A stretch of DNA of 64,000 nucleotides from Lachnospiraceae bacterium (lineage in GTDB: Bacteria > Bacillota > Clostridia > Lachnospirales > Lachnospiraceae), in assembly GCA_016284355.1 (NCBI GenBank), contig JAEEOQ010000004.1:1-64000 (forward strand), given 5' to 3'. The notes under the pieces are model-generated. The model was given only the letters and a program-made list of their open reading frames with translations. It had not been told where the DNA came from and did not search any database. This document shows positions 4,761-54,452 of this stretch, in pieces. Position numbers and translations under genes: made by a program. Each line of letters starts with the position of its first letter. The stretch's first letter is position 1.

Positions 4761-5480
4761 ATGAGTTTTTTTAAAGAATTGAAGGAAGATCTTGCGCAGG
4801 CTGTAGATGAGCTTGTACCTGAAGAGGAAAACGAAACAGCAGGAGAAGAAGAATCTCTTGACGAATTCGATCTTGACGGTGAGACAAGCGGAAATGTTGA
4901 CGAGCAGATGCTTTCAGATCTTTCTGCTGAAGAAGAACTCGAAAAAGAGGAGAGCGTGCCTTCTGCTTCTGATGTATTTTCAGAGACTTCATCTACTTCT
5001 GCATTTGATTCTGATGCAGAAGCAAAGTCAGATGTTACCGTTATTACAAAAGGAACTACAATAAACGGTAGTATCACATCAGATGGTTCACTTGAAGTTA
5101 TGGGTACCATTGCCGGCGATATTGAGTGTCTTGGCAAGCTTACCATTATCGGTAATGTAAAAGGTAATTCTACAGCTTCTGAGGTTTATGTTAATACTTC
5201 AAGACTTGATGGAAGCATTATTTCAAAAGGTTCTGTTAAGATTGGTGTGGGTACTGTAGTTGTTGGTGATATCACAGCTTCATCCAGCGTTATCGCAGGT
5301 GCTGTTAAAGGTCAGATCGATGTTAACGGTCCTGTTATCGTTGATTCTACAGCAGTTATCAAGGGTAATATCAATGCCAAGGCTGTTCAGATCAACAACG
5401 GAGCTGTTCTTGAGGGATATTGCTCACTCAGCTACTCAACCGTCGATATAGATACATTCTTTGACGAGGAGAACAATTAA
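4761..5480 (+). CDS. Bactofilin-family cytoskeletal protein
   Basis: This 239-aa protein has an acidic, low-complexity N-terminus (about residues 10-90). A bactofilin domain follows (about 91-225), with the typical beta-helix pattern of short glycine-rich turns (TTINGSITSDGSLEVMG, IAGDIECLGKLTIIGNVKGN). Bactofilins polymerise without nucleotide into filaments that organise cell-wall enzymes. It has no membrane segment. The acidic N-terminal extension is longer than in minimal bactofilins and may recruit partners. It starts at ATG 4761 behind GGGAGG, 24 nt after the deacetylase gene and 2 nt before pyrH, so all three are probably cotranscribed. The link to the deacetylase is inferred from position. 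Confidence 0.85.
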   Translation: MSFFKELKEDLAQAVDELVPEEENETAGEEESLDEFDLDGETSGNVDEQMLSDLSAEEELEKEESVPSASDVFSETSSTSAFDSDAEAKSDVTVITKGTTINGSITSDGSLEVMGTIAGDIECLGKLTIIGNVKGNSTASEVYVNTSRLDGSIISKGSVKIGVGTVVVGDITASSSVIAGAVKGQIDVNGPVIVDSTAVIKGNINAKAVQINNGAVLEGYCSLSYSTVDIDTFFDEENN

Positions 5481-43992: not shown

Positions 43993-44665
43993 GACCGGTA
44001 ATGTTAAATTCATAGGCCATCTTGATATTATGCGTTATTTTCAGAAGGCCTTTAGAAGAGCCGGTGTTGATATGACATATTCTAAGGGCTACAGCCCTCA
44101 TCCTTTGCTTTCCTTTGCTGCCCCTCTTGGAGTCGGCATTACAAGCGAGGGAGAATATCTTGACCTTAGAGTTAATACCACTGAAAGCTCTAAAGTGATG
44201 ATAGAAAAGATAAACTCTGTTATGAGCAGCGGCCTTCGCATTGTTTCTTATAAGCTTATGCCTGATGATGCAAAGACAGCCATGTCTCTTATATCAGGCG
44301 CAGATTATCTGGTATTTGATAAAGAAGACGCTGAAAATAAGATTTTTACAAAAAACGCTGAAAAGTTTAAAGAATACCTAAAGCAAGATGAGATAATCAT
44401 AACAAAAGATTCCAAATCAGGTCCAAAAGATATTGATATAAAGCCTTATATTTATAAAACTGATATCAGTAAAGACGGGCTTCGCATGATTGTAAGCCAG
44501 GGAAGTGAAGTTAACATAAGACCTGAATTTGTACTTGAAAGTTTTTTTAAGTTTTTGGGTATAGATTACAACGAATACAGGTATCAGATCCACAGATTTG
44601 ATCTGTTTACCGGTGATAAAGATAATTTTGTTTCACTTGACACTATGGGAGAAGACATAAATTGA
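43967..44665 (+). CDS. DUF2344 (TIGR03936) protein, radical SAM partner
   Basis: This 232-aa protein begins MNIRMRFAKTGNVKFIGHLD, then IMRYFQKAFRRAGVDMTYSK with GYSPHPLLSFAAPLGVGITS, the hallmark of DUF2344. It often occurs as a fusion to, or neighbour of, the TIGR03960 radical SAM protein. The exact role is unknown; tRNA or rRNA binding has been proposed from context. I chose ATG 43967, 8 nt after GGAGGAGG, inside the end of the upstream gene (26-nt overlap). A longer open frame exists but has no such site. The next gene starts at TTGA over its stop. Confidence 0.88.
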   Translation: MNIRMRFAKTGNVKFIGHLDIMRYFQKAFRRAGVDMTYSKGYSPHPLLSFAAPLGVGITSEGEYLDLRVNTTESSKVMIEKINSVMSSGLRIVSYKLMPDDAKTAMSLISGADYLVFDKEDAENKIFTKNAEKFKEYLKQDEIIITKDSKSGPKDIDIKPYIYKTDISKDGLRMIVSQGSEVNIRPEFVLESFFKFLGIDYNEYRYQIHRFDLFTGDKDNFVSLDTMGEDIN

Positions 44666-45666
44666 AAAGATTAGTAATATTTGCAGCATTTTTTATTGCC
44701 TGCGGCCTTCTTACGGCTAGAGTAAAGGCTGAAGATATCGTTAGCGGTAGCGCTATAGATGTTCAGATAAATGAAGTTACAGGCCCCGCTATAACATCAG
44801 GACCTGCCGTAACTACCGGTTCTTCTATTACTACAGGTGGATCTATCGCTTACGGTAATCTTATTTTAAAGTATACTGACGATAGCAAAACTGCTCTTGT
44901 AATAAGCGATATAACAGCTTTTGATGATGGCATTTTGTATGTACCCGGAAAAGCAGGAGAGCTTGATGTAATAGGTTTTGATCCTTTAAGCCTTGCCGAA
45001 AATGAAGTTTACCAAAACTTATCTGAAGTAGTTTTTGATGAAGATTTTACGAGTCTTTCAGATTATTCTTTTTCAGGGCTTTCTAATCTTGCAAGAGTAA
45101 CTTTTAACGGAAAACTGGTTAAGATTGGAAATGGTGCTTTTGCAGGCTGTAACAGATTAAAGGAAGTAAAATTTAATGGAAGGGTCTCTTCTATAGGCGA
45201 TGACGCATTTCTTTCCTGTACTTCCCTTAAAAGTATAGATTTAAAGTACGGTCTTACAAAGATCGGTTCTTACGCTTTTTCAGAAAGCGGCCTTACGAGG
45301 GTAAAACTTCCAAGCTCGGTGCTTTCTATTGGAAACAACGCTTTTTCAGGCTGCAAGGGACTTACCGTTGCTTACACAGGAGCCTCTGTTACATATATAA
45401 GACCCGGCCTTTTTTATGGCTGCACCTCCTTACAAAAAGTAACTTTTGGCGTTGATACTGAAAAAATAACAAATAATGCTCTTTACGGATGCAAAAAACT
45501 TACAAAGCTTGTATTTAACTGCGATCCCGCCATTGTAAGAAAAAATATGTATCTGCCTTCTAAGGCTAAGATATATGTAGACAGTGAGTACTATAAGAAT
45601 TTTAAGAAAGTAATAAAAAATAACACATATTATAAAACAAATAAGAATAAAATAGTTAAAAAATGA
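44662..45666 (+). CDS. Secreted BspA-like leucine-rich-repeat protein
   Basis: This 334-aa protein has a signal peptide (MKRLVIFAAFFIACGLLTAR, cleavage near VKA). A Ser/Thr/Gly-rich stretch (about 28-65) carries short repeats of the form GPAIT, SGPAVTTGSSITTGGS. About six LRR_5 repeats of BspA type follow, such as VKFNGRVSSIGDDAFLSCTS and LTKIGSYAFSESGLTRVKLP. It ends in a Lys-rich tail without an LPxTG motif or membrane anchor. Such proteins are surface or secreted binding proteins. It starts with TTG 44662, overlapping the upstream stop (TTGA), and lies 1 nt before rng, so it is embedded in an RNA-processing operon. Confidence 0.85.
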   Translation: MKRLVIFAAFFIACGLLTARVKAEDIVSGSAIDVQINEVTGPAITSGPAVTTGSSITTGGSIAYGNLILKYTDDSKTALVISDITAFDDGILYVPGKAGELDVIGFDPLSLAENEVYQNLSEVVFDEDFTSLSDYSFSGLSNLARVTFNGKLVKIGNGAFAGCNRLKEVKFNGRVSSIGDDAFLSCTSLKSIDLKYGLTKIGSYAFSESGLTRVKLPSSVLSIGNNAFSGCKGLTVAYTGASVTYIRPGLFYGCTSLQKVTFGVDTEKITNNALYGCKKLTKLVFNCDPAIVRKNMYLPSKAKIYVDSEYYKNFKKVIKNNTYYKTNKNKIVKK

Positions 45667-47551: not shown

Positions 47552-48040
47552 ATGAACTGTCTTGATTTTCAAAGCGAGATAACAAGATATATAAATAATG
47601 AGCTAAGCTTTAAAGAAAAAGAAAGTTTTATAGCGCATCTTAAAACCTGTGATAACTGCAGAGATGAGCTTGAGATCTACTATATCGTTATGACCTCATT
47701 AAAACAGATGGATGAAAACAAAGACGTTACATCTGACTATAAAAGCTCCTTTGAAAAAAAGATAAGGTCCTCTGAAAGAGAACTTGTCAAAAGAAGATAT
47801 GAAAGGCTTCGCAGAAGGATCACATTTCCTGCGGTTCTTTCTATCGTTATGCTTCTAACCGGCCTGTCCGTAACAGATGAAAATGAAGAAGCAAAAGATG
47901 ATGCTGCCGATAAGGCCAAAAGCATCTATGAGATGAAATTCAGATTTGCAGAAGACCCTTCACACATTACCTTCGAAAAATCTGTAGACCTTGATAAAAT
48001 ATTACTTGAACTGGAGAAACAAAGGGATGGATCAAAATGA
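47552..48040 (+). CDS. Small zinc-finger (zf-HC2) protein, anti-sigma-factor-like
   Basis: This 162-aa protein has an N-terminal zf-HC2 motif (FIAHLKTCDNCRDELEIYY, H-x3-C-x2-C), a charged middle, one likely membrane segment (ITFPAVLSIVMLLTGLSV, about residues 92-109) and a short extracytoplasmic tail. That is the layout of membrane-bound anti-sigma factors of ECF type. No sigma-factor gene lies next to it, so it may act on a distant sigma factor or have another role. The start is ATG 47552, 8 nt after AGGAGG. It overlaps polA by 14 nt, an unusual partner. Confidence 0.7.
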   Translation: MNCLDFQSEITRYINNELSFKEKESFIAHLKTCDNCRDELEIYYIVMTSLKQMDENKDVTSDYKSSFEKKIRSSERELVKRRYERLRRRITFPAVLSIVMLLTGLSVTDENEEAKDDAADKAKSIYEMKFRFAEDPSHITFEKSVDLDKILLELEKQRDGSK

Positions 48041-50891
48041 TTTCCTGCTTATAATAGACGGATCGAGCCTTCTTACAACCAACTTTTTCGGGAATCTTCC
48101 CCGTCAGATCATGTTTGCAAAGACTCTCGAAGAAAAAGAACGCTATTTTGACAAGATAATGCAGACAAGCGACGGCATTTATACAAATGCGGTCTATGGT
48201 TTTATGCGCTTTCTTATAAAGGTGCTTGAAGAACAAAAGCCTAAATATCTGGCTGTTTCATGGGATCTTAGCAGAAATACCTTTAGAAAAGAAATGTATG
48301 CTGATTACAAAGCAAACAGAACTGAGACTCTTTCCCCTTTAAAAGACCAGTTTATGATATGCCAGTATGTACTTGATAAATGCGGTATAGCCCAGTTCCT
48401 TGACCTTAGGTACGAGGCAGATGATTTTTGCGGTTCTCTTGCCGCAAAGTTTGAAAGTAAGCTGCCTGTTTATATCCTTACAAAAGATAATGATTACCTG
48501 CAGCTTATAAATGACAAAACAAAATTATGGCTTATGCACAGCAGCCAGGATAAAACAGACGAACTGTATAAAAAATACGGTATTGACAAAAAGAAAGTAA
48601 ATGCCCCGGACAGATGCTTTGTTTATGATACAAAGCTTGTAAAAGAAGAATTTGGTATAGAAGCTGAAAATGTAAATTCCTATAAAGGCATAGCGGGAGA
48701 TACTTCAGACAACATAAAAGGCGTCACAGGAGTGGGTGAAAAGACCGCAACTGCGCTTATTGCATATTACCATACTGTAGATAAAGTATACGAAGATATT
48801 GATTCAAAAAGCGAAGCAGAGCTTAAGTCTTTTTATAAGGAGTCCCTTGGGCTTTCAAGGTCTCCCTACAAATATCTTCTTGAAGGAAGAGACGATGCAT
48901 TTCTTTCCGAAAAGCTTGCCACTATTAAAAAAGATATAGATCTTGATATAAGCCTTAACGACCTTTCTTCAGCCATAAATGCAGATAACCTAAAAAAGGT
49001 GCTTGCAGCCCTGGAATTCAACTCTGTAAATGCAGATACTGATAAATTTGAGACAGATAACAGCAAGCAGCTTCCTGACTATAAGTATGGCTATAATTAC
49101 GCATTTACAAGCGGCGTATTTACAGAAGGAAGCATAGCTCTTGCAGATTCCATAGAATCAAGACTTCCTGCAAAAGCAGAAGACACAAGCCTTAAGCTTA
49201 AATCTTATGAGCTTAAAGAGATCTCTGATTTTGGAGAAGCAGATGAGTTATTTGATCGTCTTCTTAAAGAAAAACATGAAAAGATTGGGTTTTTCTTTGA
49301 AGAAGAAGCAGGTGATATAAGCGCTTTAAACATTTGCGTAAGTGAAGAACTCATTTACCGTTTCCCTGTATTTATGTTTCTTAGCGGCGACTATCTTGCA
49401 GGTAAGGTTAAGCAGCTTATTGAAAATAAGAAAAACTGTAATTTTGTTACCTTTGAGCTAAAGAAGGCATACAGATACATTGGATGCGACACGAAAAATA
49501 ACCTTAACTCGGTTACTCTTGCGGCATATCTTTGCGACCCTGCAGATAAAGAATATGATATAGCATCGATAGCTAAGACTTATCTGCCTGTTAATGAGGT
49601 TTCAGAAGATAAAGCCGGATACTTTGCATTCCTTCTTTGGGATATTTTATCTGAAAAGCTAAAAGAATCAGAGATGATGTCTTTATATAAAGATATCGAG
49701 CTTCCTTTGATACAGGTTCTTTTTGAGATGGAAAAAAGAGGAATAGCGGCAGACAGAGAGCATATCGCAGAATACGGAAGCAAGCTCCTTATCCGTATAA
49801 ACGAGCTTACAAAAGAGATTTATGATCTGGCAGGAGAAGAGTTTAACATTAATTCTCCAAAGCAGCTTGGAGTTATCTTATTTGAAAAAATGGGGCTTCC
49901 ATCCGGCAAAAAGACCAAATCAGGCTACAGCACATCTGCTGATGTTCTTGAAAAGCTTTCTGAAGACTACGATATAGTTAAAAAGATACTTGAATACAGA
50001 CAGTATTCAAAGCTAAAGAGCACCTATGCCGACGGTCTTTACGATTTTATAAAAGAAGACGGCAGGATACACTGCAGTTTTAATCAGACGGTTACGGCTA
50101 CAGGTAGGCTTTCCTGTACTGACCCGAACTTACAGAATATACCTATCCGTACAGAGCTCGGCAGACTTATAAGAAAGAACTTTGTTCCTAAAGAAGGCTG
50201 CGTATTCCTTGATGCGGATTATTCCCAGATCGAGCTTCGAGTACTAGCGCATTTATCAAAAGATAAAACACTTATAGACGCCTTCCTTAGCGGAGCGGAT
50301 ATACACCAGACTACCGCTTCAAAGGTATTTAATGTGCCTTTTGATGAAGTTACAAAAGACCAGAGAAGGAGTGCAAAAGCCGTTAACTTTGGTATTGTGT
50401 ACGGGATAAGTGCTTTTGGGCTTTCTGAAGATATCGGTATTTCAAGAAGTGAGGCTTCAAAATTTATCGATAAATATTTTGAAACTTATAAAGATGTTAA
50501 GAAATATGTAGATTCCTTAGTTGAAGGCGCTAAAGACAAGGGCTATGTAAGTACCCTTTACGGAAGAAGAAGATATATTAAAGAGCTTGACAGCCCGAAC
50601 TTTAATATCCGCCAGTTTGGGGAACGTGTAGCTATGAATACCCCGGTGCAGGGAACGGCTGCGGATATCATAAAGATCTCCATGATAAATGTAAATAACA
50701 GGCTTAAGGCTGAAACAAAGGGTTCAAGGCTTCTTTTACAGATACACGATGAACTTCTTATAGAGGCGCCTGAATATGAAAAAGAACTTGCCGCAAAGAT
50801 ACTTAAAGAAGAAATGGAAAATGCCGCGCACCTTGCGGTTCCTCTTCTTGTAGAAGTAAATGAAGGCAAAGACTGGTACGAGGCAAAATAA
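48027..50891 (+). CDS. polA: DNA polymerase I with degenerate 3'-5' exonuclease
   Basis: PolA (954 aa) fills gaps and removes RNA primers. The 5'-nuclease domain (about 1-330) has FLLIIDGSSLLTTNFFGNLP, YADYKANR, EADDFCGSLA, ILTKDNDYLQLI and GDTSDNIKGVTGVGEKTA, with an insert of about 30 residues after the first strand. The proofreading domain (about 400-580) lacks the catalytic D-x-E (IGFFFEEEAGD) and the second-motif Asp, so it is probably inactive. The polymerase has TGRLSCTDPNLQNIPIRT, motif A FLDADYSQIELRVLAHLS (about 727), RRSAKAVNFGIVYGIS and IHDELLIEAP. The start is ATG 48027, twelve codons inside a longer frame. Confidence 0.95.
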   Translation: MDQNDFLLIIDGSSLLTTNFFGNLPRQIMFAKTLEEKERYFDKIMQTSDGIYTNAVYGFMRFLIKVLEEQKPKYLAVSWDLSRNTFRKEMYADYKANRTETLSPLKDQFMICQYVLDKCGIAQFLDLRYEADDFCGSLAAKFESKLPVYILTKDNDYLQLINDKTKLWLMHSSQDKTDELYKKYGIDKKKVNAPDRCFVYDTKLVKEEFGIEAENVNSYKGIAGDTSDNIKGVTGVGEKTATALIAYYHTVDKVYEDIDSKSEAELKSFYKESLGLSRSPYKYLLEGRDDAFLSEKLATIKKDIDLDISLNDLSSAINADNLKKVLAALEFNSVNADTDKFETDNSKQLPDYKYGYNYAFTSGVFTEGSIALADSIESRLPAKAEDTSLKLKSYELKEISDFGEADELFDRLLKEKHEKIGFFFEEEAGDISALNICVSEELIYRFPVFMFLSGDYLAGKVKQLIENKKNCNFVTFELKKAYRYIGCDTKNNLNSVTLAAYLCDPADKEYDIASIAKTYLPVNEVSEDKAGYFAFLLWDILSEKLKESEMMSLYKDIELPLIQVLFEMEKRGIAADREHIAEYGSKLLIRINELTKEIYDLAGEEFNINSPKQLGVILFEKMGLPSGKKTKSGYSTSADVLEKLSEDYDIVKKILEYRQYSKLKSTYADGLYDFIKEDGRIHCSFNQTVTATGRLSCTDPNLQNIPIRTELGRLIRKNFVPKEGCVFLDADYSQIELRVLAHLSKDKTLIDAFLSGADIHQTTASKVFNVPFDEVTKDQRRSAKAVNFGIVYGISAFGLSEDIGISRSEASKFIDKYFETYKDVKKYVDSLVEGAKDKGYVSTLYGRRRYIKELDSPNFNIRQFGERVAMNTPVQGTAADIIKISMINVNNRLKAETKGSRLLLQIHDELLIEAPEYEKELAAKILKEEMENAAHLAVPLLVEVNEGKDWYEAK

Positions 50892-50893
50892 TT

Positions 50894-51490
50894 ATGGTCA
50901 TTGGATTAACCGGCGGCATCGGCGCAGGAAAATCATTAATAAGAGATTTTTTTGAAAATAAGTTTGGTGCCTACTGTATTGATATGGATACTCTGGCAAA
51001 AGATATCCTTCTTTATGAAAATGCTAAAACCCAGATAATAAAGGCTTTTGGAAAAGAAAGCTATTTGCCTGACGGCTTACCTGACAGGGCATATCTTGCA
51101 AAGGAAGTATTTTCTGATATAGATAAAAGGGATAAGATAAACAGCATAATCCATCCTCTTGTGCTTAGCAAAGTAAAAGAACTTATAGCTGCTTATGAAA
51201 AGGATCATGAATACGTTGTTTGTGAAAGTGCCCTTCCTGTTGAAGCAAAGCTTAAAGAATACTGCGATCTTATAATTTTTGTTAACGCCGATAAAGAAGT
51301 TCGAAGAAAAAGGCTAAAAGACAGCAGAGGATACTCAGACGAAAAGATCGACAGTATTTTCAGATCTCAAAAAGATACTGCATTTTATAAAAACTATGCC
51401 GATTATACTTTAGATAACAGTAAAGAGCCTGATGATGCTCTTATAAACCTTAGAAAAATTCTTGAAAAAGGAGTAAAAAGCAATGGTTAA
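50894..51490 (+). CDS. coaE: Dephospho-CoA kinase
   Basis: CoaE (198 aa) performs the last step of coenzyme A synthesis. It has the P-loop VIGLTGGIGAGKSLIRDFF at the N-terminus, the DMDTLAKDILL substrate motif, IIHPLVLSKVKELI and the lid region FVNADKEVRRKRLKDSRGYS. It starts at ATG 50894, two bases after polA, and overlaps the FtsA-like gene by 8 nt. The polA-coaE order is common in Firmicutes. Confidence 0.95.
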   Translation: MVIGLTGGIGAGKSLIRDFFENKFGAYCIDMDTLAKDILLYENAKTQIIKAFGKESYLPDGLPDRAYLAKEVFSDIDKRDKINSIIHPLVLSKVKELIAAYEKDHEYVVCESALPVEAKLKEYCDLIIFVNADKEVRRKRLKDSRGYSDEKIDSIFRSQKDTAFYKNYADYTLDNSKEPDDALINLRKILEKGVKSNG

Positions 51491-53585
51491 ACGTCCTGAA
51501 CATCTTGTTTTTGGTCTTGATATAGGTACCAGAAATCTTGTGGGAACAGTAGGTTTCAGAGAAAATGAGCATCTTTTCAGAGTTGTGGCCATAAGCGTTA
51601 AAGAGCACGAAACAAGAGCCATGCTTGACGGACAGATACATGATATTGCAAAGGTTGCGGAATCTATCGGCAAGATGAAAAAAGATCTTGAAGAACAGGT
51701 AGGAAGTCCGCTTGAATCTGTTTGTATTGCTGCTGCAGGCCGTGTTCTTAAGACTGTTAATGTAACTGCAAGAGTTGAATTTACGGAAGAAACTCATGTA
51801 AAGAACGAACATATCCATGCTCTTGATATGCTTGGCGTTGAGCAGGCCTACGAAAAGATAAGAGAAAACAAAAGCAATGAAAAAATAAATTATTATTGCG
51901 TGGGATATTCTGTAGTGCATTATTATCTTAACGATTATCCTATGACAAAGCTTGAAGACCATAAAGCTAACAATATAGGCGCAGAGCTTATTGCCACCTT
52001 TTTACCTGAAGAAGTAATAGACGGCCTTTATTCTTCAGTCGAATCTGCAGGTCTTCAGGTAGAAAACCTTACCTTAGAGCCAATTGCTGCTATGGAAGTT
52101 GCTATTCCTGAAAAATACAGGCTTCTTAACATCGCTCTTGTGGATGTGGGGGCGGGTACATCAGATATCTGTATTACAAAGGACGGAAGCGTTATTGCAT
52201 ATGGCATGATTCCACACGCCGGCGACGAACTTACAGAAGAACTTGCAAGAAAATACCTTGTTGAATTTAACGTGGCTGAAAAGATAAAGCAGGACGCCAT
52301 GAAGAAAAAGACCGTATCTTTTAAAGATATAATGGGACTTAAGCAAAAAGTTGCTTCTTCTGAAATTCTTGAGACTGTAGATTCTGTTATTAAGATGATA
52401 GCAGGCGAGGTTTCAGATAAGATAAAGGAGCTTAACGGCGGCAAATCTGTAAGCGCCGTATTTGTAGTAGGTGGCGGCGGCAAGATCAAAGGCTTTACAG
52501 AGCAGCTTGCAGAAAGCCTCGGCCTTGCAAAAGAAAGAGTAGCGCTTAGAGGAGAAGAAGTTCTTAACGAAGTTGAATTTTTACAGGAAGGCGTCAAAAA
52601 AGACCCTCTTCTTGTTACCCCCATAGGTATCTGCTACAGCTATTATGAAGCAAGAAACAACTTTATCTTCGTTAATGTAAACGGTGAGAGGGTTAAGCTT
52701 TATGATAACAACAAGCTTACCGTAGTAGATGCTGCTATGCAGATGGGCTTTCCAAATGAAGATCTTTTCCCGAAAAGAGGCGCTTCCTTGCATTACAAGT
52801 TTAACGGAGAGACGAGAGTCCTTCGAGGCGAATCAGGAGAAGCTGCTGTTATTAAAAAGAACGGCAAGAACGCGTCAATAAGCTCACCTATAGAAAAGAA
52901 CGACCAAATCGAGATCATAAAGTCTACCGCAGGAAATCCTGCCGAGGCAACCATCGGAATGCTTCCTGAGACCCATGAGAATTTCTCGTTTACATTTGAC
53001 GGCAAGACTGTTGAGTGTCCGAAATTCCCTATGGTAAACGGCGAGACAGTAACAGACGCATACAAGATAAAAGACGGCGACGAGATCACTCTTACAGATT
53101 ATTATACCTTAGAGCAGGTTCTTTCATTTATGGACCTTCCATACAAGACCGGTATAGAAGTAAACCATCTTCCGGCGCCTAAAGATGAGAAGATCTATGC
53201 CAACTTTACGGTTTATTACGATCTTTCTCTTGATAAAGAAAGAAAAGCCGCAGATGAAAATGCAGATGAAACTCCGGATGAAAGCATTGAAGATGCGGGT
53301 AGCGAAAACTCTGAAAGTGGCGCTGATGAAGCAAAGGAGTCTGCGGCAAAGACAAAAAGTAAAGAAAAACCTGCAGACATCTTTATTACCGTAAACGGTG
53401 ACGCCGTAAAGATGAGCGGCAAGAGCAGCTATATACTTGTTGATGTCCTTGATTTTTACCCCTTTGATATGAGTAAGATGGGCGGAGACGAGCTTGAGAT
53501 AAGAGTAAATGACATTAAACAAAGCGGTTTTACCGCAGGAGTTAAAGATGGTGACAAAGTTACTCTTACCTGGATCAACAGATAA
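51483..53585 (+). CDS. FtsA-like actin-fold ATPase with long C-terminal beta-grasp-like extension
   Basis: This 700-aa protein has an FtsA/PilM-type actin fold (about 1-385): phosphate-1 LVFGLDIGTRNLVGTVGF, phosphate-2 IALVDVGAGTSDICITKDGS and adenosine motif AVFVVGGGGKIKGFTEQLAE. The remaining 300 residues are unlike FtsA. I see three VNG-type beta modules (FVNVNGERVKLYDNN, FSFTFDGKTVECP, ITVNGDAVKMSGKSS), separated by an acidic, Ala/Ser/Glu/Lys-rich linker (about 580-625). No membrane helix and no FtsA amphipathic tail are evident. It follows coaE with an 8-nt overlap and lies outside any division cluster, so its filament partner and role are unknown. Calling it FtsA would over-reach. Confidence 0.8.
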   Translation: MVKRPEHLVFGLDIGTRNLVGTVGFRENEHLFRVVAISVKEHETRAMLDGQIHDIAKVAESIGKMKKDLEEQVGSPLESVCIAAAGRVLKTVNVTARVEFTEETHVKNEHIHALDMLGVEQAYEKIRENKSNEKINYYCVGYSVVHYYLNDYPMTKLEDHKANNIGAELIATFLPEEVIDGLYSSVESAGLQVENLTLEPIAAMEVAIPEKYRLLNIALVDVGAGTSDICITKDGSVIAYGMIPHAGDELTEELARKYLVEFNVAEKIKQDAMKKKTVSFKDIMGLKQKVASSEILETVDSVIKMIAGEVSDKIKELNGGKSVSAVFVVGGGGKIKGFTEQLAESLGLAKERVALRGEEVLNEVEFLQEGVKKDPLLVTPIGICYSYYEARNNFIFVNVNGERVKLYDNNKLTVVDAAMQMGFPNEDLFPKRGASLHYKFNGETRVLRGESGEAAVIKKNGKNASISSPIEKNDQIEIIKSTAGNPAEATIGMLPETHENFSFTFDGKTVECPKFPMVNGETVTDAYKIKDGDEITLTDYYTLEQVLSFMDLPYKTGIEVNHLPAPKDEKIYANFTVYYDLSLDKERKAADENADETPDESIEDAGSENSESGADEAKESAAKTKSKEKPADIFITVNGDAVKMSGKSSYILVDVLDFYPFDMSKMGGDELEIRVNDIKQSGFTAGVKDGDKVTLTWINR

Positions 53586-53657: not shown

Positions 53658-54452
53658 ATGAGATTATGTAGTATCGCCAGTGGAAGCAGCGGAAATTGTA
53701 TATTTGTGGGCTCAGATGAGGCAAATATCCTTATTGATGTGGGTATCAGTAAAAAGAGGATAGAAGAAGGACTTAACGATATAGACGTATCGCCTGAAAG
53801 TATCGATGCCATCTTTATTACCCATGAGCACTCAGATCATATACAGGGGCTTGGAACCTGGCTAAGAAAGTATCCCTGCAGGGTTTTCTCCACAATAGAG
53901 ACCTTAAATGCCATTTTACATGTAAAAAGTCTTGGTAAATTCGACCAGGATCTGTTTTGTGACATTCTGCCGGGTGATGACATAGAAATTGCCGATATGA
54001 AGGTAAAGGCTTTTTCCATTCCTCATGATGCTGCAAATCCTGTCAGTTATTCTGTTGTGTCGGAAGGCAAGAAGATCTGCGTGGCCACAGATATTGGTAT
54101 ATTTACGCCGGATATCGAAAAGGAACTGCTTAGCTGTAACGCAATGCTTCTTGAAGCAAATCATGATGTCCATATGCTTGAAGCAGGTCCTTATCCTTAT
54201 GTACTTAAGCGAAGGATACTTGGCGACAACGGCCATCTTTCAAATGAAAATTCCGGCAAACTTTTAGCAAAGGTCTGGAATGAGGGGCTTTCTAATGTTT
54301 TTCTTGGGCACCTGTCTAAAGAAAACAATTATCCCGACCTTGCATACGAGACAGTAAAGGAAGAACTTCAATCGGTTCACCCCGGATGTCTTGAAATAAC
54401 AAAGCTTTCGGTAGCCTTTAGAGACAAACCTTCAGAGCTTGTTATCGTTTAA
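53658..54452 (+). CDS. MBL-fold metallohydrolase (YycJ/WalJ-like)
   Basis: This 264-aa soluble protein has the metallo-beta-lactamase fold with SIASGSSGNCIFVGSDEANI at the start, the metal motif THEHSDHIQGLG (about residues 54-65), AFSIPHDAANP, CVATDIGIFTP, EANHDVHML and the late VFLGHLSKENN. This set matches the YycJ/WalJ group, which has been linked to cell-wall metabolism and mismatch repair. The walKR two-component genes that often accompany yycJ are not here. The start is ATG 53658 behind AGGACGG. ACT-domain and UPF0210 genes follow. Confidence 0.88.
   Translation: MRLCSIASGSSGNCIFVGSDEANILIDVGISKKRIEEGLNDIDVSPESIDAIFITHEHSDHIQGLGTWLRKYPCRVFSTIETLNAILHVKSLGKFDQDLFCDILPGDDIEIADMKVKAFSIPHDAANPVSYSVVSEGKKICVATDIGIFTPDIEKELLSCNAMLLEANHDVHMLEAGPYPYVLKRRILGDNGHLSNENSGKLLAKVWNEGLSNVFLGHLSKENNYPDLAYETVKEELQSVHPGCLEITKLSVAFRDKPSELVIV

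Follow-up and report, generated by a model that had tools for sequence, protein, structure and literature searches.

The 64,000-nucleotide stretch of a Lachnospiraceae bacterium analysed here (contig JAEEOQ010000004.1; hereafter, the window) carries, at 51483-53585 of its forward strand, a gene for a 700-residue protein in which an actin-like ATPase core resembling FtsA is followed by a tail of beta-grasp domains. We show that this gene, termed here the FtsA-like gene, is largely confined to genomes with flagella and, statistically, that it is retained alongside flagella and tends to disappear when they do. Judged from its sequence, the encoded protein does not look like the division FtsA and is best read as an ancient FtsA paralog in the class Clostridia. 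As for its function, the account that we favour, and that we credit about as much as we doubt, is that of an actin-like scaffold in flagellated Clostridia, whose beta-grasp tail would bind partners and which most likely places or tunes the flagellar or chemosensory apparatus. The link to flagella was an unexpected result of the analysis and had not been foreseen by an earlier interpretation of the window made from its letters alone (the sequence-only reading).

The FtsA-like gene is kept, and tends to be lost, with flagella

The FtsA-like gene is real: it has homologs in 45 of the 98 genomes searched from the order Lachnospirales (the window's own counted) and in 91 of the 391 from the class, some of the matches being partial or split. 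In the class, 98 genomes matched the FtsA-like protein, and 91 were counted after dropping seven (G134, G161, G189, G190, G284, G323 and G404) whose sole match was a short, FtsA-size frame; five of these seven have fliF, our marker of flagella (match E up to 1e-15). Within the order, fliF was found in 42 of the 45 carriers of the FtsA-like gene versus 20 of the 53 non-carriers. The near-complete genomes of the order gave 33/35 versus 14/43, the window's own family (f1) 25/27 versus 6/33, and the class 88/91 versus 58/300. For comparison, fliF occurred in 59 of the 97 class genomes with canonical FtsA and in 87 of the 294 without it. Two control genes were counted across the order in the same way. 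spoIVA was present in 31/45 carriers and 42/53 non-carriers, and the pilus gene pilB in 31/45 and 27/53, respectively (p 0.10; 14/27 and 16/33 in family f1), under a pilB threshold set in the analysis (E up to 1e-119, 58 genomes); no genome, controls included, passed the curated pilB cut-off.

Because tests on such counts ignore kinship, a species tree was built (FastTree) from proteins encoded near sepF in 93 of the 98 order genomes; three of the other five lacked a SepF match and two were too sparsely aligned. Few genes underlie this tree, and its deep branches are uncertain. On this tree, 12 of the 20 inferred losses of the FtsA-like gene coincided with a branch of fliF loss (3.4 expected; 0 of 5000 simulations), and with other costs and another root the shared losses numbered 10-12 versus 2.7-3.4 expected. 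Losses of the control genes shared a branch with a loss of the FtsA-like gene four times each, without excess for either spoIVA (4.3 expected) or pilB (3.7 expected).

An FtsA-type core with a beta-grasp tail, apart from FtsA and PilM

The gene and the parts of its protein are as follows (coordinates in the window, strand, description, basis).

51483..53585, +, FtsA-like protein with beta-grasp tail, 700 aa; the gene under study
51495..52652, +, actin-like ATPase core, residues 5-390, complete FtsA fold; Pfam, sequence match to solved proteins, model
52653..52931, +, beta-grasp domain 1, residues ~391-483, TGS-like; TGS Pfam, model against the TGS domain of SpoT/RelA
52977..53222, +, beta-grasp domain 2, residues ~499-580, ThiS/ferredoxin-like; ThiS Pfam, model
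53229..53363, +, disordered acidic linker, residues 583-627; pLDDT < 50, length differing among homologs
53376..53576, +, beta-grasp domain 3, residues ~632-698, ThiS-like, with Trp697 near the C-terminus; model

The first half of the protein scored above the cut-off for both Pfam domains FtsA and PilM_2. The narrower family models stayed below theirs: TIGR01174 (FtsA) at 90.2 bits (cut-off 175.85), TIGR01175 (PilM) at 57.4 bits (cut-off 133, the broader PilM_2 being above), EutJ at 71 bits on the ATPase half (cut-off 182) and MreB_Mbl (PF06723) at 23.2 bits (cut-off 27). By sequence, the best-scoring solved structures were those of FtsA. Residues D13, T16, D221, G223-T226, D228, G331 and G332 are invariant in 64/64 aligned sequences; they correspond to what we take to be the ATP-site motifs of the actin family, and the core should, on the strength of these residues, bind ATP. 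An AlphaFold2 model of the whole protein from 64 sequences reached a mean pLDDT of 87.5. Its core superposed on E. coli FtsA (7q6d) with Z 41.5 (363 aligned residues, 2.3 A), ahead of PilM, the second-best structural family (Z 34), EutJ (Z 26.9) and the kin of MreB (~26). The modelled core is thus of the FtsA-type actin fold, which bears out the intact actin-fold core that the sequence-only reading had assigned to this open reading frame.

That reading had also described the second half as three VNG-containing beta segments with a linker in place of the FtsA membrane tail, and had called for structure prediction of this part. The prediction agrees with it: the second half is modelled as three beta-grasp domains of the TGS/ThiS kind, each containing a VNG segment, with the disordered linker lying before the last. 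Modelled alone, the tail again gave three beta-grasp domains (pLDDT 88.9). Domain 1 matched the TGS domains of SpoT and RelA (Z ~7-8), domain 2 the ferredoxin-type N-terminal domain of [FeFe]-hydrogenase at a middling Z of 6.9, and domain 3 ThiS (3cwi, Z 7.9) and haptocorrin (Z 8.8). In Pfam, the tail alone scored 24.8 for ThiS (cut-off 22.5), with its best stretch at tail residues 131-150 in domain 2, and 22.2 for TGS (cut-off 22.2), that is, at or over the cut-offs; when the whole protein was scanned, TGS fell under its cut-off (20.3) and ThiS was absent from the list. Across 61 homolog tails, TGS matched 47 and ThiS 35 (Pfam, E up to 0.05), and W697 is invariant in 64/64 sequences. The best Foldseek matches of the tail were tandem ubiquitin-like proteins, and since their superposition was poor we claim the beta-grasp fold for single domains only. 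At its C-terminus the model closes with a beta strand of domain 3 and shows no amphipathic membrane helix, whereas the 12 canonical FtsA tails of the class inspected by eye all end in one. Relative to stand-alone TGS and ThiS domains, which those of the tail resemble in sequence and fold, the arrangement differs in that three stand in tandem and are joined to an actin-like ATPase. EutJ is similar to the ATPase half in both sequence and fold but is shorter and lacks the three-domain tail.

In the order, FtsA above the family cut-off was found in 0/98 genomes, the 78 near-complete ones included, and SepF was present in 95/98, so that division in this order seems to proceed without any recognisable FtsA. 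This raises the possibility, which we consider unlikely, that the FtsA-like protein is the division FtsA of the order, relocated and remodelled, and that it anchors FtsZ via its tail or together with SepF. The core is indeed closest to FtsA in sequence and structure, and the window's genome (~80% complete) has no other FtsA above the cut-off; its three matches to the FtsA model are the window gene, an MreB-like gene (L002) and a third that is not among the matches listed. However, the FtsA-like gene itself is absent from 53 of the 98 order genomes, which together with the 0/98 for FtsA indicates that much of the order divides without either. Moreover, among the 391 class genomes, 91 encode the FtsA-like protein, 97 canonical FtsA (counted at E up to 1e-36, 81 of them above the curated cut-off) and 33 both. 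The division role that the sequence-only reading had entertained finds no support in these counts. The same reading had suggested looking for a second, true ftsA in the genome, whose absence, if the gene also complemented FtsA, would speak against a new actin-like protein; that absence does hold above the cut-off in this 80% complete genome, but the coexistence with FtsA elsewhere argues against drawing such a conclusion from it.

In a protein tree (FastTree) of 26 long FtsA-like homologs, 29 FtsA, seven PilM-like proteins of the order and one MreB-like protein, the FtsA-like, FtsA and PilM-like sequences formed separate clades with support of 0.76 (moderate), 0.94 and 1.0, respectively, nine genomes supplying both an FtsA-like protein and FtsA. 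We regard the FtsA-like protein as a distinct paralog because it forms its own clade and coexists with FtsA. It shares with FtsA the fold and the conserved nucleotide-site residues and differs from it in its sub-threshold family score, its three beta-grasp domains in place of an amphipathic helix, its association with flagella, and its gene, which is not beside ftsZ in the window. Structure, Pfam and tree therefore uphold the view of the sequence-only reading that this is an actin-like protein of FtsA type yet not FtsA itself, whose beta-grasp modules would suit the binding of partners. A passage of PMC6958937 covers the canonical pilT-ftsA-ftsZ operon.

That the FtsA-like protein belongs to type IV pili as a PilM-type component is, in our estimate, very unlikely. 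The PilM_2 match above the cut-off and the rank of PilM in the structural comparison, which reflects a shared fold class, speak for such a component. Against it, the PilM family score is far below its threshold (57 versus 133 bits), the PilM-like proteins of the order form a clade of their own, the beta-grasp tail sets the protein apart from PilM, and pilB is not clearly associated with the gene; the pilus role that had been proposed from the sequence thus finds no footing in the pilB counts.

A paired diguanylate cyclase and the proposed flagellar role

In 10 of 80 named loci and 5 of 20 distant loci (L127, L129, L137, L139, L141, L144, L155, L172, L173, L185, L200, L204, L206, L209 and L217), the gene that comes next after the FtsA-like gene codes for a membrane protein of 515-606 residues with a GGDEF domain. 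Profile scans confirmed GGDEF in five of these 15 cyclases: three distant ones carry GAF and GGDEF, and the two Lachnospiraceae ones scanned carry GGDEF alone. Hydropathy estimates gave mostly 3-5 membrane segments. The cyclase family was searched for with a model of the N-terminal part without GGDEF, which was built from adjacent genes and so favours adjacent finds. Strong matches (E up to 1e-25) occurred in 20 of the 98 order genomes, 19 of which carry the FtsA-like gene, and in 18 genomes a gap of 14-461 bases separates the matched part of the FtsA-like gene from the cyclase, which follows it on the same strand. The nineteenth carrier, G086, has the FtsA-like gene near a contig end and a partial cyclase match on another contig. 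Only one strong match (G040:C24:6694-7854) comes from a genome that lacks the FtsA-like gene, and fliF too; it is possibly a relic or serves a second function. In total, 23 genomes matched the cyclase model, the three outside the 20 being G047 (cyclase nearby, partial, E 2.8e-15) and G064 and G084 (weak and partial). The GGDEF membrane protein is apparently a diguanylate cyclase dedicated to the FtsA-like gene.

We propose that the FtsA-like core forms an ATP-dependent scaffold or short filament, onto which the partly flexible beta-grasp tail would dock partners. The membrane might be reached through such partners, for instance the cyclase, in place of an amphipathic helix. The partners would be components of motility, among which we would count the membrane diguanylate cyclase adjacent to the gene in many genomes, and the assembly would most likely serve to position or adjust the flagellar or chemosensory apparatus, in part via local cyclic di-GMP (c-di-GMP). 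A more specific version, which we put forward only tentatively, is that the protein represents a third branch of the FtsA/PilM group dedicated to the flagellum, in which an ATP-dependent scaffold of Clostridia positions or regulates flagella or chemoreceptors, with its ubiquitin-like tail as an adaptor, and in many species recruits or controls a dedicated cyclase.

Several observations weigh against a flagellar role. Within the order but outside family f1 the link is weak (fliF in 17/18 carriers versus 14/20 non-carriers, p 0.09). The FtsA-like gene is absent from 58 flagellated genomes of the class and 20 of the order, and flagella therefore do not require it; conversely, a fliF match is missing in three carriers of the class, one of them 99% complete, and in three of the order. 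The number of GGDEF genes co-varies with the gene as well, at least eight being present in 34/45 carriers versus 16/53 non-carriers of the order. No cyclase match was found in the window's genome (80% complete), nor in most carriers. Only 2 of the 127 carriers with fliF have it within 15 kb of the FtsA-like gene (by eye from coordinates). Finally, a trait that accompanies motility, such as cell shape or lifestyle, could produce the same co-occurrence, which does not tell it apart from flagella.

Such a trait constitutes the main rival to a flagellar role: the FtsA-like gene may track a rod or curved cell form, or the envelope of free-living cells, and act in side-wall growth, the link to flagella being indirect, an explanation that we regard as possible but doubtful. 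Wall growth was also among the roles that the sequence-only reading had named. Consistent with it, in 5 of the 20 distant loci the next gene downstream encodes a VanW/PG_binding_4 protein, which points to the cell envelope; FtsA and the kin of MreB act in wall growth; and GGDEF counts co-vary with the gene. On the other hand, losses of the gene and of fliF fall together on individual branches, spoIVA, also a marker of lifestyle, is not linked to the gene, and among the matches listed those of MreB-like length occur in carriers and non-carriers alike, one of them (L002) having been read.

The two cases of proximity to fliF are those of G075, where the FtsA-like gene is followed by an MCP gene and then by a flagellar cluster with fliF and fliG (L215, 6385-14811), and of G358, where fliF lies ~10 kb away. 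We gave position beside flagellar genes little weight as evidence, 2/127 being close to what chance may give. As separate observations, the MreB-like gene of the window's own genome (L002, G000:C68) adjoins a flagellar basal-body rod gene (by eye), and in six class genomes (G156, G387, G422, G458, G440 and G275) canonical FtsA is encoded ~13-20 kb from fliF on the same contig.

Division is served by FtsA and pili by PilM; a relative that tracks flagella would add a third surface machine to the uses of this fold. How flagellar number and placement are set in Gram-positive bacteria beyond FlhF/FlhG is, to our knowledge, an open question, for which the FtsA-like gene offers a concrete candidate that can be deleted. 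If the proposed role is true, c-di-GMP production would be tied to an actin-like structure, the pairing with the cyclase joining an actin-like protein to c-di-GMP signalling, and the name that the family bears in databases, 'cell division FtsA domain-containing protein', would be misleading. The analysis also draws attention to an order with no FtsA above the cut-off in 98 genomes. In the family libraries scanned, the FtsA-like protein has no more than an FtsA equivalog match below threshold and matches to the broad FtsA/PilM domains, and a literature search, leaving out subscription papers and preprints, found no account of the family's function. 'Cell division protein FtsA' appears among the functions rarer in gut bacteria in a table of PMC4945068 that also holds flagellar, chemotaxis and diguanylate cyclase groups, and FtsA, flagellum biosynthesis and GGDEF are among the families unique to Pseudobutyrivibrio genomes in PMC6912079; the passages concerned contain no remark linking FtsA to flagella or GGDEF.

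Gene neighbourhood and other features of the window

Three genes flank the FtsA-like gene in the window.

47991..50891, +, polA, upstream of coaE; Pfam DNA_pol_A
50894..51490, +, coaE, directly upstream, 8-base overlap; Pfam CoaE
53658..54452, +, MBL-fold hydrolase, downstream; Pfam Lactamase_B

As the sequence-only reading had noted, the gene follows coaE; its ATG start shares eight bases with the coaE 3' end, and the two likely form an operon. Among the 80 named loci, of which six have no upstream gene and two no downstream gene on the contig, coaE is directly upstream in 63, polA within three genes upstream in 66 and an MBL-fold gene directly downstream in 67. The MBL-fold hydrolase of the window occupies the place that the diguanylate cyclase takes in other genomes. 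In the 20 distant loci, six of which were read gene by gene, endonuclease III (nth) is directly upstream in nine (three verified by profile); the five with a VanW/PG_binding_4 protein downstream are L201, L203, L208, L210 and L213 (two profile-checked).

The frequency of polA and of endonuclease III upstream, along with dnaG in one genome (by eye), could suggest that the FtsA-like protein serves DNA repair or replication. We find this hardly probable: these neighbours are housekeeping genes and change between families, whereas the FtsA-like gene is patchy and tracks flagella. Together with the division FtsA and pilus PilM readings, it was set aside after testing, on the evidence given with each.

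Two further genes of the window were recorded. A BspA-type leucine-rich-repeat protein (44662-45666, +; LRR_5, 8.5e-42) is encoded among housekeeping genes. Bactofilins matter for flagella in Bacillus, where BacE and BacF are cytoskeletal and have a flagellar role, in which they resemble what is proposed for the FtsA-like protein but with an unrelated fold; the window carries a bactofilin gene of its own at 4761-5480 (+; Pfam 1.7e-23).

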